Shown here in pieces: positions 11,437-18,121 of a stretch of DNA of 33,959 bases (position 1 is the first letter of the stretch; each line of letters begins with the position of its first letter). The DNA comes from Chloroflexota bacterium (GTDB lineage: Bacteria > Chloroflexota > Dehalococcoidia > Lucifugimonadales > UBA3495), in assembly GCA_028875655.1 (NCBI GenBank), contig JAPPCX010000035.1, forward strand, positions 1 to 33,959. Reading direction: 5' to 3'. The notes under the pieces are model-generated. The model did not search any database. It had not been told where the DNA came from and saw only the letters and a program-made list of their open reading frames with translations. Both the position numbers and the translations under genes were made by a program.

Positions 11437-12256
11437 GTCGCCTCTTTTGCTTCAGCGTCAGTGTTTCCACTACGTTGTGGCCTCGTAAAATGCCCGCGTT
11501 CTCCCCACGGACTGGCAAGCATCCAGCATAGGCGCGCCGTGATGCGCTCCCGGTGGCATTCCTGGGGGATCACCAGAAACACGCGAGAAGTGCCGCGGTG
11601 AAACCACATCGGGATTGGTTCCGTACACAACGCCTTGTGGATTTCGGCGCAAATGTTCCTGATCTGCGCCTCAGCCTTCCCGCTCATGTTCAACTGGTGA
11701 TAGACCACGAGGCTTTTCCCGGCGTCCCAGACTGCCTTGAGGTCGTCCATGTAGGCATACTTCGGCCCGTCTCTGCGATACTTCAGAACGTCCTCGGCCG
11801 GCCGGATGTTGTGTTATCCGGGTCGAGGAACACCACATCCGCGTCTGCCATCCCATCGAGCGCACTCCGCCACCACCGGGCGCGCACTTCCCGATTGTTC
11901 ACCGCGTTGTTGTTCCAGCCGGCGTTGTGGAGCGATAGACCGAAATAGATGGTATCCGCCGGGAGAATGGCCGACTTCTCAATACATCCGACGCAACGGC
12001 GGTGCGGAACCAGCGTCTGCAAGTCGTGCCACAGCCCGGGGTCGCAGTCGTGATATTCCAGATACTTCTGTTTGGTGTGGGCCAGGTAGCCGGTGAACCT
12101 GCCCGCGGTGTCGTCCGGGTCGTCCGGCGTCATGTACCAGACCACGCCCAACCGCAGATCAGCCTCCAGCGTCTCGGGATCGGTGATGCCGCACAATCGG
12201 CGCAGTAGTCCGTACTTGCCAAAGTCGCCAACGTCGGCCACGAATTGATCTCGCAT
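11433..12256 (-). pseudogene. Frameshifted gene of an uncharacterised DPDN-motif family
   Basis: Two reading frames together make one protein of about 270 residues. The N-terminal frame (12256 to 11783, 157 residues) starts MRDQFVADVGDFGKYGLLRRL and reaches VVFLDPDNTTSGRP. The C-terminal frame resumes with AEDVLKYRRDGPKYAYMDDL and continues KSLVVYHQLN to 11433. The break falls in the CCGGCCGG run at 11795-11805, where one base too many or too few explains it. I recall the combined pattern (GDFGKYGLLR, GVVWY, FLDPDN, LVVYHH) from a family of hypothetical proteins common in islands. Function is unknown. Decay is likelier than programmed shifting, but the run is repetitive. Confidence 0.7.
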
Positions 12257-12296
12257 GGGTGGTTGCCCCCTTCATTCCATCTGGCTGGCAACCACC

Positions 12297-12354
12297 AAAA
12301 AGCGGTTGCCTTGCCTTCTCATCCACGCCGGGATTTGAACCACAAGGCAACCGC
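12297..12354 (-). terminator. Long hairpin plus T-run (minus-strand terminator candidate)
   Basis: GCGGTTGCCTTG (12302-12313) pairs perfectly with CAAGGCAACCGC (12343-12354) around a 29-nt loop that contains a T-arm-like GGTTCAAATCC (minus strand). On the minus strand the stem is followed by TTTTT. The next hairpin (CCGCCGA/TCGGCGG, 12351-12371) shares four bases with this stem, so the two cannot fully coexist. Confidence 0.5.
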
Positions 12355-12419
12355 CGATATAATTTCGGCGGCCCGTTCGGGCCTTTGGGCGTCCCGGCAT
12401 GGATGCCCAAAACAAGCGG

Positions 12420-12444
12420 CCCTCGGCATTAGCGGTGCCGAGGG
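12420..12444. ncRNA. Perfect hairpin, 9-bp stem, 7-nt loop
   Basis: CCCTCGGCA (12420-12428) and TGCCGAGGG (12436-12444) pair completely around TTAGCGG. It is part of the structured region upstream of the ribozyme. The 7-nt loop size recurs in the hairpins at 12351-12371 and 12709-12733. Confidence 0.55.
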
Positions 12445-12508
12445 TCGCACTTTCTTACTGAATTAAGCGCATCGGGAACCTCCCTCGCGGCCATGAGGAT
12501 GGCGTCTT

Positions 12509-12621
12509 GCTAGGGTCGCCGGGTCCCGTTGAGGGGATCGCAAGGGAGGCACGAATGCCATCCAAAGCTGAATATCCCAATCAACGGGCAGGGCTGCGTG
12601 CCCTTGTCCCTCGACCCTAGC
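12509..12621. ncRNA. Branched 113-nt RNA fold of unknown class
   Basis: The closing stem GCTAGGGTCG/CGACCCTAGC is 10 bp and perfect. Inside, CCCGTTGA (12525-12532) pairs with TCAACGGG (12581-12588), and GGGAT with ATCCC (12534-12538/12574-12578) stacks on it, capped by GGCA-CGAA-TGCC. A second arm, AGGGC-TGCGT-GCCCT (12590-12604), completes a three-way junction. An alternative pairing of CAAGGG (12541-12546) with CCCTTG (12601-12606) would make a pseudoknot. It does not match twister, pistol or HDV cores as far as I can tell. Confidence 0.55.
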
Positions 12622-12708
12622 GCGGCCATTGAACCACAAGGGGGCGGGCGCGTCAATTTTTTGGGCGTAGCCGTGCCGGGGTTATGATGGTCTAGGTAAT
12701 AAGTTGAT

Positions 12709-12733
12709 GGGCCGGAGTCCAAAGCTCCGGCCC
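12709..12733 (+). ncRNA. Perfect hairpin directly 5' of the hammerhead
   Basis: GGGCCGGAG (12709-12717) and CTCCGGCCC (12725-12733) form nine perfect pairs around TCCAAAG. It lies four bases before ribozyme stem I and may contribute the loop contact or insulate the ribozyme fold. Confidence 0.6.
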
Positions 12734-12737
12734 GTCT

Positions 12738-12786
12738 GCCGCACTGATGAGGGGATACCCCGAAATGCGACGATTGCATCTGCGGC
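12738..12786 (+). ncRNA. Hammerhead ribozyme, type I
   Basis: All core elements are in order and unmutated. Stem I 5' strand GCCGCA (12738-12743), CTGATGA (12744-12750), stem II GGGG-ATA-CCCC (12751-12761), GAAA (12762-12765), stem III TGC-GACGATT-GCA (12766-12778), cleavage dinucleotide TC (12779-12780) and stem I 3' strand TGCGGC (12781-12786), fully complementary to the 5' strand. Cleavage is expected after C12780. The known consensus CUGANGA...GAAA...UH is met exactly. Stem I is open at the far end, which defines type I. Bacterial hammerheads are often near prophage or mobile genes, as here. Confidence 0.88.
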
Positions 12787-13003
12787 TTCCGAGGATGAAA
12801 ATGCCAAGAGGACCGCCCTGCTGGACGGTCTAGACGGTCATTTGACTGTCGAAGGCCGAGTCCAGGCGAAGAACCCTTTGGGAGCCGCCCTCGACCTCGT
12901 CGGTATCAACGGCGGGGACGAGGGAGTAACCGACATTGCCGGTGGCAAGTCCGGCTACCGCATCTGCGCGGGCAGGGTACACCAGTAGAACGAAATTGCG
13001 CAA

Positions 13004-13513
13004 TTATTGCGTCGCCTTTTCCGCGACCTGCCACAACGCCGACTCTACAACGTCGTCGTCGTCCAGCGTTCCCACGATGACGGCCTGACTGTCCCGGACG
13101 TGTACGCCAGATTGGTACGTAAGTTGTTTGGCCTGGGCGAGAATTCGCTCGGTGAGTCCACCGGCAAAATCTGCTCCCAGCAACAGGAACGCGGCCGGTC
13201 GCCGCACACGGAGAAACCTCAACGCTAGCGTGAACGCCTCCACTTGTGCGCCTTCGGGCAGGCAGGCGCACAGCAAGTCAAACGGCGGCGCGTGGCCATA
13301 GACCGAAAGATCGTCGCCCTCCGCCGGCCAGTCATCGCCCGACTGGTGGACATAGACCACGTCCAGGCCGATAGAGCGGGCAGCGTCGCCCAAAGCTCCG
13401 TCGTCATCGTACAGGCAGGCCAGCCGGAGAATGCCGGTGGCCGCTGCTGGCGTCTGGGGCCGGGCGAGGCGGCGTATCGTGTCTCTGAGGGCGTCCCTGG
13501 AATCGTCTTGCAT
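13004..13513 (-). CDS. Rossmann-like protein resembling the N-terminus of C5 cytosine methyltransferases
   Basis: A 169-residue protein starting MQDDSRDALRDT at ATG 13513, with AGGAG about 10 nt upstream. The pattern LRLACLYDDDGALGDAARSIGLDVVYVHQSG... then FDLLCACLPEG recalls the SAM-binding N-terminus (motifs I-III) of Dcm-type enzymes. However, the motif I glycines and the catalytic Pro-Cys of motif IV (seen here as LPEG) are absent, and the target-recognition half is missing. It could be a degenerate or regulatory homologue. The function is not supported beyond fold resemblance. Confidence 0.5.
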   Translation of the reverse strand: MQDDSRDALRDTIRRLARPQTPAAATGILRLACLYDDDGALGDAARSIGLDVVYVHQSGDDWPAEGDDLSVYGHAPPFDLLCACLPEGAQVEAFTLALRFLRVRRPAAFLLLGADFAGGLTERILAQAKQLTYQSGVHVRDSQAVIVGTLDDDDVVESALWQVAEKATQ

Positions 13514-14026: not shown

Positions 14027-15085
14027 TTAGTCCTGCTTCCGTCCCGTCAGTTGCTCGTAGGTGAGCCGCTTGCCCACCATTCCCCGGATCACGCGCTTGA
14101 TGCTCTCAAAGCCGTTGCCTTTGCCCGAGTTGAGCCGGTAGGTACTCTCGTCCAGGTAGCGGCGCAGGTGTTTCCGGCTGACGCCGTGATAGGTTCCCCG
14201 GTATGTGCCCTTGAATAGTGCCCAGAAGCTTTCAATCGCGTTGGTGGTCCCGCCGTTGTCGTTCACGTACTGGCCGATGCGGTGCTCCACCTTCTCGTGG
14301 CCGTACCCAAAGTCTTCGAGCCCCCGATACGCGGCGTGCCCGTCGGTACAGATGATGGAACCGATATGCACGTTGTCGAGCACGCCGTCCCGTATTTCCT
14401 CGATGTCGGCGAATTTCAATGGGAACGCCATCACCTTGCCGCCGGGCCCGCCCTCCTTGAGGCCGAACACGGTAATCCGACCTTTCTGCCAATCGCCGTG
14501 CAACTTTTTCTTGGCGTGTTTCCAGCGTTCGATGCCGCCAATGTAGGTCTCGTCCACCTGGACTGTGCCCCTCATCATCGGCGGGTCGTCCTCCCGCATG
14601 GCCTCGCGGATGCGCATTTCCAAGTGCCACGCCGTATCCTGCTTGACATCCAGCAATTTCGACAGGTTGACGCTGCTGACGCCATGGCGATCCGAGAGCA
14701 TGAAGTAGATCGCCAGCAGCCATTTCTTGAATGTCAGGTTGGTCTCCTCAAAAACCGTGCCGACGCGGACCGAGAAGAATTTCCAGCACGCCCGGCAACG
14801 CCACTTCATGGGCTTGCCGCCCTTGGACTCGTACACGTTATCGCTGCCGCATTTCGGGCAGAAGGGCGTCTCGCCCCAAACACATTCTTCGACGAAGGCG
14901 GTCGCCGCCTCCTCGCTGGAGAAGCGATCAAAGAACTTCTCGATGCCGATGATGTCCAGTTGCTCTTTCTTGGTTGGTTTCCGCTTGGGCGCGAGCGTGC
15001 CCGCCTTGTCTGGTGTCGTGATCTCCGAGCCGCCGCGGTTGACGATTTCGCCCTTCCTGACGCTGATCCTGTTGTTCGCGTCCAT
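14027..15085 (-). CDS. IS1595 family (ISXO2-like) transposase
   Basis: A 352-residue transposase. An N-terminal zinc ribbon (CPKCGSDNVYES...WRCRACWKFF, about residues 77-101) is followed by the FEETNLTFKKWLLAIYFM helix typical of ISXO2-like proteins. The DDE-type catalytic domain shows VQVDETYIGG (first Asp), IICTDGHAAYRG (second Asp) and TTNAIESFWALFKGTYRG (Asn-Glu). The frame is intact, so the enzyme may be active. The element's ends (9768 and 15856) are probably its substrates. The start ATG 15085 has AAGGAGAAAG upstream. Confidence 0.93.
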   Translation of the reverse strand: MDANNRISVRKGEIVNRGGSEITTPDKAGTLAPKRKPTKKEQLDIIGIEKFFDRFSSEEAATAFVEECVWGETPFCPKCGSDNVYESKGGKPMKWRCRACWKFFSVRVGTVFEETNLTFKKWLLAIYFMLSDRHGVSSVNLSKLLDVKQDTAWHLEMRIREAMREDDPPMMRGTVQVDETYIGGIERWKHAKKKLHGDWQKGRITVFGLKEGGPGGKVMAFPLKFADIEEIRDGVLDNVHIGSIICTDGHAAYRGLEDFGYGHEKVEHRIGQYVNDNGGTTNAIESFWALFKGTYRGTYHGVSRKHLRRYLDESTYRLNSGKGNGFESIKRVIRGMVGKRLTYEQLTGRKQD

Positions 15086-15403: not shown

Positions 15404-15495
15404 TGGCGGAGGATGGCGGGATCGAACCGCAATGCCTTTGGAGACATTTCTCGGATTTACAGTCCGGTCCAGTTACCAAACTGGAAACATCCTCC
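15404..15495 (-). tRNA. tRNA-Tyr (GTA)
   Basis: A class II tRNA with long variable arm. The acceptor GGAGGAT/ATCCTCC is perfect, followed by discriminator G and encoded CCA. The D-arm is CCAGTTTGGTAACTGG, the anticodon loop CTGTAAA (anticodon GTA) sits on CGGA/TCCG, the variable arm includes GAGA...TCTC, and the T-arm GCGG-TTCGATC-CCGC has its outer pair mismatched. It differs from a typical chromosomal tRNA-Tyr in several stem pairs, as tRNAs carried by mobile elements often do. Confidence 0.8.
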
Positions 15496-15864: not shown

Positions 15865-16156
15865 GGGGCGGGGTAGTTGGATGGTTGAGTTAAATGGTAC
15901 GGATGGATGGAGGTTAGGGGCAAGGGGGAACGTGTCACTCATGGGTGTGGGAAACCGTCGTTGCGAGCGAAGCGTGGCAACCTCGTGCCGATGGCGACGC
16001 CCGTAGCCCCAACGAGATTGCGTCGCTTTGCTCCTCGCAACGACGATGACACCATTGGCGGAGTTTTGCACAGTGCAGGGCCGGCTCTCTCCCTTGCCGA
16101 TTTTCCGCACGGTGGGCTATACTGATTTACAGTTTTTTCAGGCGGGCGTGAGCGAA
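15865..16156. repeat. Intergenic repeats upstream of prfA-prmC
   Basis: The segment holds two arms of the GTTGCGAGCGAAGCGTGGCAAC repeat family (15957-15983 and about 16018-16046, inverted). The frame of the downstream gene stays open through this part, but it has no protein-like character. No separate gene is seen. Confidence 0.5.
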
Positions 16157-18121
16157 ATGGTCGACATTTTCGATAAGTTGCAGCCCATTGTGGAGCGGTA
16201 TCGCGCCATCGAAACCGAGATGGCCCAACCCGAGGTTGCCGCCGATTATGCTCGTTTGGGTGAACTGAATCGCGAACGCTCCGGCCTGGAGGACCTGGTC
16301 GGCATCGACGTGGAGCGCCGCAAGCTGGCCGAGGAACAGGCTGACCTGCGCGCCCTCATCACCGAGGGCGGCGACCCTGAGTTGGTCGAAATGGCCCAGT
16401 TGGAATTGGCCGATGTTGAAAACCGCCTTTCCGAACTGGCCCAGCAACTCCGCATCGCCCTGCTGCCCAAGGATCCCAACGACGAACGCGACGTGATTGT
16501 CGAGATCCACGCCGCCGCCGGCGGGCAGGAAGCGTCGCTGTTCGCGTCCGACCTCTACCGCATGTACCAGCGCTACGCCCAGGAACAGGGCTGGAGCGTG
16601 GACATCCTGGACTCCAACCCGTCCGACTTGGGCGGATTCAGCCGCATCGCGTTTTCCGTGGACGGGCGAAACGCCTTCAGTAAGCTCAAGTTCGAGGCCG
16701 GCGTACATCGCGTCCAGCGCGTTCCCGAAACCGAGGCGCAGGGCCGCATCCACACCTCCACGGCCACGGTGGCCGTGCTGCCCCAGGCCGACGAGGTTGA
16801 GGTCAACATCAAGGAAGACGACCTGCGCATCGACATATTCCACGCCGGCGGACACGGCGGGCAGAACGTCAACAAAGTCGCCACCGCCGTGCGCATCGTC
16901 CACGAACCTACGGGCATCACCGTCGTCTGCCAGGACGAACGCTCCCAGTACAAGAACAAGTCCAAGGCCATGACCATCCTGCGCAGCCGGCTCTACTCCG
17001 CCGAGCAGGAACGGCACCAGGCCGAGATTTCCAGCAACCGCAAGGCCCAGATCGGCAGCGGCGACCGCAGCGAGAAAATCCGCACCTACAACTACCCCCA
17101 GGATCGCATCACCGACCACCGGATCAGCCTGTCCACTCACGGGATACAGCGCCTGATGGACGGCGGCCTCAACGAGATCATCGACCGCCTCATCACCGCC
17201 GACCAGGAGCGCGGTCTGGCCGCCATCTCCGCGTATGCCCTGATGCCCAGCCTGCGCGACGTAATCCAGGCCACCCACCGCACGCTGGAATCGGCCGGCA
17301 TCCCCGATGCCCGGCTGGAGGCCGAGGTCATGGTGATGGACGTGATGCGGATGCCTCGCCAGGCCATCTTCGCCGAGCAGGAATCCCAGGTCGCGGCGCA
17401 GCAGGAGGCCCAGCTATCCGCCATCGTGGAGCGACGCCTCACCCGCGAACCGTTGGCCTACATCCTCAACTACCGCGAGTTCTACGGCGTCAACCTGCTG
17501 GTCAACCCGGACGTGCTCATCCCGCGGCCGGAGACGGAAACGCTGGTGGAACACGCCCTGTTTATGGCCCTCATGGGCATGGAGAGCCGGGAGTTGGTCA
17601 TCGCCGACGTGGGCACCGGAACCGGCGCCATCGCCGTCAACTTGGCCATCCACCTGCCTGCCGCCCGCATCTACGCCAGCGACGCCTTTGACCCGACGCT
17701 GGACGTGGCGGCCTACAACGTGCGGATGCACAACGTCGCCGACCGGGTCACGCTGCTGAAAGGCGACCTGCTGGAATCGCTCCCGGAGCCGGTGGACGTG
17801 ATCGCGGCCAACCTGCCCTACCTGCCCACCGAACGCATCCCCACGTTGCAACCGGAAGTCCAGTGGGAACCGGTGGTGGCCCTGGACGGCGGGCCCGACG
17901 GCCTGGACCACATCCGCCGCCTGATCGCACAGGCCGCCGAGCCGGACCGCCTCAAACCCCACGGCGTCATCCTGCTGGAAATGGACCCGGAGCAGATGGA
18001 TGAGGCGCGACGCCTGGCATCGGAAACGTTCCCGGACGCCGAAATCACCGTCGAGCGCGACCTGGCCGGCCGGGAGCGCGTGCTATCGGTCAGCCTCGCC
18101 GGCAGCCAGGACGGCTACTAG
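16157..18121 (+). CDS. Fusion of peptide chain release factor 1 and PrmC methyltransferase
   Basis: One 654-residue frame joins RF1 (about residues 1-358) to PrmC (about 365-654). RF1 decodes UAA/UAG stops: the tripeptide region is RVPETEAQGRIHTS (PET at 190-192) and the peptidyl-hydrolysis loop is GGHGGQNVNK (GGQ at 234-236). PrmC methylates that glutamine using SAM: SAM motif I DVGTGTGAIAV (484-494), IPRPETE (455-461) and NLPY (552-555) in place of the usual NPPY. The linker SAYALMPSLRD has Met363, where a separate PrmC would begin, but no ribosome-binding site precedes it. ATG 16157 is chosen; GTG 16148 is an alternative. The stop overlaps the convergent gene by four bases. Confidence 0.9.
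   Translation: MVDIFDKLQPIVERYRAIETEMAQPEVAADYARLGELNRERSGLEDLVGIDVERRKLAEEQADLRALITEGGDPELVEMAQLELADVENRLSELAQQLRIALLPKDPNDERDVIVEIHAAAGGQEASLFASDLYRMYQRYAQEQGWSVDILDSNPSDLGGFSRIAFSVDGRNAFSKLKFEAGVHRVQRVPETEAQGRIHTSTATVAVLPQADEVEVNIKEDDLRIDIFHAGGHGGQNVNKVATAVRIVHEPTGITVVCQDERSQYKNKSKAMTILRSRLYSAEQERHQAEISSNRKAQIGSGDRSEKIRTYNYPQDRITDHRISLSTHGIQRLMDGGLNEIIDRLITADQERGLAAISAYALMPSLRDVIQATHRTLESAGIPDARLEAEVMVMDVMRMPRQAIFAEQESQVAAQQEAQLSAIVERRLTREPLAYILNYREFYGVNLLVNPDVLIPRPETETLVEHALFMALMGMESRELVIADVGTGTGAIAVNLAIHLPAARIYASDAFDPTLDVAAYNVRMHNVADRVTLLKGDLLESLPEPVDVIAANLPYLPTERIPTLQPEVQWEPVVALDGGPDGLDHIRRLIAQAAEPDRLKPHGVILLEMDPEQMDEARRLASETFPDAEITVERDLAGRERVLSVSLAGSQDGY

Follow-up and report, generated by a model that had tools for sequence, protein, structure and literature searches.

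A probable translational mRNA leader of Chloroflexota with a predicted double pseudoknot over the Shine-Dalgarno sequence

The SAM-II, preQ1-II/III and c-di-GMP-II riboswitches lie in 5' leaders, act in cis and form a pseudoknot in which the Shine-Dalgarno (SD) sequence or its flank pairs with an internal loop, and the element described here appears to resemble them in each of these respects. It also resembles the orphan riboswitch candidates, which are conserved structured leaders without an assigned ligand (Weinberg 2010, PMC2864571; PMC8632094; PMC11109978). Few of the motifs in these papers come from Chloroflexota (Chloroflexi-1, pan and rdhA), and none is tied to lipoprotein genes. Members of this phylum, among them sponge symbionts and SAR202 relatives, are abundant and for the most part uncultured, and their gene control is poorly known.

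We examined an element in a 33,959-nt stretch of Dehalococcoidia DNA (contig JAPPCX010000035.1, referred to here as the window). In our judgment it is very probably a translational cis-regulatory mRNA leader with a buried SD. Sequence and covariation together show its strand, its promoter, the closing stem P1, the helix between the SD and an anti-SD, a second tail helix (b), the link to protein export and the spread within Chloroflexota.

Strand, extent and fold of the element

An earlier note on this DNA had described positions 12509-12621 as a three-way-junction RNA, closed by a perfect 10-bp stem and paired far beyond chance. Both observations hold. The stem is present (12509-12518 with 12612-12621), and the 113-nt core has a minimum free energy of -60.1 kcal/mol (z about -5.5), with none of 200 shuffles as stable. 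Since the minus-strand complement of the core folds equally well, the strand is not given by folding alone. The plus strand implied by the note is contradicted by three other lines of evidence, namely an excess of G.U pairs when the SD helix is read on the minus strand (77 cells, versus 5 for A.C, among 49 aligned copies), a TTGAC box at a fixed distance ahead of the element, and an SD and AUG downstream of it. Likewise, changes in the long helix that joins core and flank read as C.A on the plus strand and as G.U on the minus strand.

The RNA as read from these signals is a minus-strand transcript, about 150-180 nt long, that reaches past 12509-12621. The functional unit runs on the minus strand from the promoter at 12656 to the start codon at 12472, and the block conserved among homologues (approximately 12474-12657) overshoots the 113 nt at both ends, so that what the note had taken for the whole element is only its core. 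At the 3' end of the block lies a strong SD followed by a start codon (AUG at 12470-12472 in the window), and an SD and start codon stand directly behind nearly all copies on the same strand. A predicted sigma70-type promoter lies upstream. A -35-like box is present in 65 of 103 copies, versus 5.7 expected from shuffles, and the -10 motif is similarly enriched (listed below), the window's own -10 box being a weak match. Transcription probably starts within a few bases of 12624, at the foot of P1. The features, in the order of the minus strand, are as follows.

12651-12656, minus strand: -35 box TTGACG; TTGAC lies 32-33 nt ahead of the element in 44 of 59 occurrences
12628-12633, minus strand: -10 box TTCAAT with an extended TG just upstream; TANNNT in 74 of 103 copies, versus 14.1 expected
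12612-12621, minus strand: 5' strand of P1, pairing with 12509-12518; 10 of 10 pairs doubly changed
12608-12610, minus strand: inner extension of P1 (GGG), flanked by bulges, partner 12521-12523; from fold and alignment
12590-12604, minus strand: P2 hairpin AGGGC-ACGCA-GCCCT (12600-12604 with 12590-12594); from the fold
12581-12588, minus strand: 5' strand of P3; from the fold, with the helix kept in copies of differing sequence
12557-12563, minus strand: b' (GGATGGC) in the P3 loop, partner 12497-12503; swap test, z 13.3
12539-12550, minus strand: a', the anti-SD GCCTCCCTTGCG in the P3 loop, partner 12478-12489; covariation and swap test
12525-12532, minus strand: 3' strand of P3; from the fold
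12509-12518, minus strand: 3' strand of P1; covariation with 12612-12621
12497-12503, minus strand: b (GCCATCC), partner of b'; swap test
12478-12489, minus strand: a, the SD-bearing segment CGCGAGGGAGGT, partner of a'; covariation and swap test
12479-12485, minus strand: SD AGGGAGG; an equivalent purine-rich site precedes the start codon in nearly all copies
12455-12472, minus strand: start codon and five-codon reading frame (MRLIQ-stop); an identical five-codon frame in the closest homologue, G006
12416-12448, minus strand: GC-rich hairpin followed by TTGTTTT, a possible terminator of the leader transcript; inverted repeat and fold

Of the two arms previously proposed inside the closing stem, the 5-bp arm is P2 (12600-12604 with 12590-12594), which varies or is absent in distant copies. 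The longer arm is also present, but instead of the supposed 13 pairs it is more accurately drawn as an 8-bp P3, with an apical loop that pairs with the 3' tail. The pseudoknot suggested alongside them exists as well, although its partner bases (12478-12503) fall outside the 113 nt. The linkers AAGU and UGCC are conserved.

The same evidence bears on the note's idea of a new self-cleaving ribozyme beside a hammerhead. The plus strand carries a perfect hammerhead core (CTGATGAG-9 nt-CGAAA, 12744-12765), the sole perfect match in the genome. It lies about 120 bases from the element, whose fold is compact and pseudoknotted as might suit a ribozyme. Like hammerhead and twister, moreover, the leader is a small structured RNA, with candidates for both within 400 bases of it in the window. 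However, it is on the opposite strand from them, shares no common structure with them and is not conserved with them. None of the other 49 family genomes contains a match to the region with hammerhead-like and twister-like sequence (12650-13010), yet one of them carries the leader at 98% identity, which indicates that the two do not travel together. By Rfam, the element contains no catalytic core of a known class, and similarity to hammerhead and twister is confined to the other strand outside it. The promoter, SD, start codon and gene association form the anatomy of an mRNA leader and account for the conserved parts, and cleavage would sever the message upstream of its own SD. The analysis gave no sign of self-cleavage. 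We thus consider a self-cleaving ribozyme highly improbable, and reject it on the plus strand because of the strand evidence.

Even less probable is a transposon guide RNA (omega RNA of the TnpB/IscB type) or a small mobile element. Several copies per genome, crossing helices and an apparent TCAA end in the plus-strand reading gave some reason to consider it, and a CRISPR-like guide with it. These were dropped because the TCAA comes from the -35 box read on the other strand, and the SD and start codon form the 3' end. In addition, no linked tnpB or iscB was found among the downstream proteins scanned, and the copies diverge as regulatory elements do, each ahead of a different gene. Interpretation of the 'TTGAACC' repeats as part of a tRNA or tmRNA found no support.

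Several other features of the window deserve mention in their own right. The sequence at 12736-12790 on the plus strand forms a well-formed hammerhead (CUGAUGAG core, stem II GGGG-AUA-CCCC, GAAA, stem III AUGC/GCAU and stem I GCCGCA/UGCGGC), but scores only 17.5 bits with the Rfam type III model. About 90 bases downstream on the same strand is a sub-threshold Twister-P5 match (12879-12954; 25.9 bits versus a cut-off of 37.6, E 0.0057 in 1.2 kb), and the pair would cut out a short RNA if both were active. At 15408-15495 on the minus strand, Rfam calls a tRNA-Sec that ARAGORN misses; since its anticodon loop CUGUAAA gives GUA, the gene more likely encodes a tRNA-Tyr that has a long variable arm. 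A 697-aa reading frame (16028-18121, plus strand) fuses peptide chain release factor 1 (PCRF and RF-1 domains) to the methyltransferase PrmC, and an IS1595-type transposase is encoded at 14027-15085 on the minus strand.

Covariation and pairing of the 3' tail

The earlier note had proposed a search for homologues and for covariation of the stems, and strong covariation was found. In the alignment of 49 copies, every one of the 10 P1 pairs is doubly changed and 98.2% of cells are paired; for the 8 core pairs of the SD/anti-SD helix, all again doubly changed, the paired share is 96.6%. Taken over the entire structure, 91.4% of cells are paired, compared to 77.2% when shuffled and 36-51% when slid. 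In 36 elements from other families, which were excluded from model building, double changes occur at 10 of 10 pairs of P1 and 98.3% of cells are paired, in alignments that were fitted with the model and so lean towards the modelled P1; the SD helix of the same elements is 83.9% paired, with double changes at 6 of 10 pairs.

Because fitted alignments favor their own structure, we ran swap tests, which are independent of alignments and compare the pairing of an element's strand with its own partner and with that of another element. The own partner fits better for P1 (z 22), for the SD helix (z 11.3) and for helix b (z 6.8). With 101 elements, helix b reaches z 13.3, a value matched in none of 3000 permutations. 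Helix b has a median length of 8 bp, and the gap between it and the SD helix is about 7 nt in the loop and 2 nt in the tail. The P3 loop therefore appears to pair twice with the 3' tail, with b just after P1 and with a at the SD, whether simultaneously or alternately. Clear covariation was not seen for a local hairpin next to the anti-SD, a candidate for the ON state.

The SD helix is 12 bp long (duplexfold -22.9 kcal/mol) and could be a stable fold rather than a switch. Its stability is one of two points in favor of a passive element, such as an RNA thermometer, a limiter of translation rate or a coupler of translation start to membrane targeting, none of which would need a ligand; the other is the association with export irrespective of protein function, described below. 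Known RNA thermometers, on the other hand, are mostly short hairpins with imperfect pairing of the SD, and a junction with two pseudoknot helices conserved across the phylum is more than a passive element would lead one to expect. We regard a passive role as unlikely.

Distribution and downstream genes

When 60 related genomes were searched at the DNA level, five of them, which belong to the same genus, proved to contain clear homologues: G006 (98%), G010, G001, G005 and G008, the last with two copies. A first covariance model, built from seven minus-strand sequences, gave approximately 40 further good matches in the family, and a second was built from the 49 aligned copies. In the family, the second model found 99 matches, distributed over 25 of 50 genomes with up to eight in each; in the order it found about 145, distributed over 49 of 250 genomes. 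Matches were present in 17 of 393 genomes sampled from the class and in 7 of 400 sampled from the phylum, five of the latter lying outside the class. A DNA-pattern scan of 85,000 genomes, of low recall by design (the pattern fits 6 of the 49 known copies), returned six matches, all in Chloroflexota and in metagenome-assembled genomes named Chloroflexi or Dehalococcoidia. Several of these have isolate names that we take to mean a marine sponge source. No Rfam 15 family matches at the window element or at the element in loci with about 50 homologues, the most distant included, and so the note's description of a structured three-way-junction RNA of unknown class is borne out. No similarity to the element was found in a phage collection. 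In two loci, leaders occur as divergent back-to-back pairs less than 200 bases apart (L069:1606-2159 and L081:2829-3340).

Reading frames linked to the leader begin a few nucleotides past the SD and, in copies other than that of the window, encode 60-950 aa. An N-terminus of the exported type (signal peptide, lipobox or N-terminal membrane segment, as scored by a crude classifier) was found in 39 of the 42 leader-linked frames of at least 150 aa, with starts chosen by rule, compared to 28 of 109 other long frames in the same loci (Fisher p about 1e-14). The regulated genes thus seem mostly to encode lipoproteins, secreted proteins and small membrane proteins, and copies outside the order also stand mostly ahead of proteins with an N-terminal hydrophobic segment. 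Export is common among the products, but a shared pathway is not apparent. Their domains are unrelated (CAP, trypsin-like, SNase, RCC1, TPR, Excalibur and DUF4352, as well as one GmrSD-type protein), and many have no domain.

Two explanations in which the leader responds to a signal bear directly on this gene set. The first is a ligand-gated riboswitch, in which a small molecule bound to the P1-P2-P3 junction and to the AAGU/UGCC linkers would stabilize or break the pseudoknot. The size and conservation of the junction, together with the pseudoknot, make it our first guess, and the aptamer-like size of the fold, the several copies per genome, the single-gene units each with its own promoter, and the burial of the SD as in several known translational riboswitches are all consistent with it. 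Given the lack of a metabolic theme among the genes, however, we consider its chances about even. Cyclic di-GMP, a natural guess for surface proteins, is an unlikely ligand because GGDEF proteins are absent from the leader-bearing family genomes (matches at E <= 1e-10 in 0 of 25, versus 8 of 14 control genomes). The second explanation is a binding site for a protein, perhaps connected with export or the state of the envelope, that represses or activates genes for exported proteins. A trans-acting regulator could well serve genes whose sole shared property is export. Yet there is no candidate protein and no gene common to all loci, and the long-range pseudoknots with little invariant loop sequence also speak against it, which makes this explanation improbable.

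The copy in the window may represent either a decayed gene or a leader with a short peptide. About 14 copies, including this one, have only very short reading frames behind them. Since just the five-codon frame follows, the window copy may no longer control a gene, although its leader, which matches that of G006 at 98% identity, is intact. The G010 and G001 copies have 22 codons at this position. Further downstream on the minus strand, 12290-12460 is strongly structured (z -5.9), and 12316-12410 is conserved downstream of the leader in two other loci (L018 and L019). A 157-aa frame at 11783-12256, also on the minus strand (MRDQFVADVGDFGKYGLL...), is conserved (95% in G006 and 44% in G001), where it likewise lies downstream of the leader; it has no match in Pfam.

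Proposed mechanism and comparison with known systems

In the mechanism we favor, that of a translational leader, transcription would start at the foot of P1 on the minus strand, and P1, P2 and P3 would form a three-way junction. The P3 loop would then offer two single strands, a' complementary to the SD and b' complementary to the segment just before it. Pairing of the 3' tail onto this loop would bury the SD in a double pseudoknot and turn the gene off, and opening of the pairing would allow the downstream gene to be translated. SD pairing would thereby lower translation, and a signal presumably drives its opening and closing, with a small molecule the most likely and a protein possible. Because the regulated genes are mostly exported, the leader would set the amount of the exported-protein set that is made. 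A bolder version, which we hold only tentatively and think rather doubtful, is that the leaders form an undescribed riboswitch-like class of Chloroflexota that senses a cell-surface or export signal, of a kind that RNA is not known to read, and sets the translation of exported proteins regardless of their function.

If this is correct, a multi-copy RNA class ahead of genes for exported proteins throughout the phylum would constitute a new regulon. It would also add to the orphan riboswitch candidates one whose architecture is specific and testable, and offer a route to the signal by which these cells dress their surface. The leader further supplies a strand, a start site and a start codon for genes that are hard to annotate.

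The leader differs from SAM-II, preQ1-II/III and c-di-GMP-II in its P1-P2-P3 junction and in the two helices that its tail is predicted to form with the P3 loop, and its genes are united by export rather than by a metabolic pathway. Neither Rfam nor the open-access papers searched yielded a description of the class. Translational leaders in which a pseudoknot covers the SD are a known kind of element, whereas the class, its architecture and its set of export genes appear, with respect to the open-access literature, to be new.
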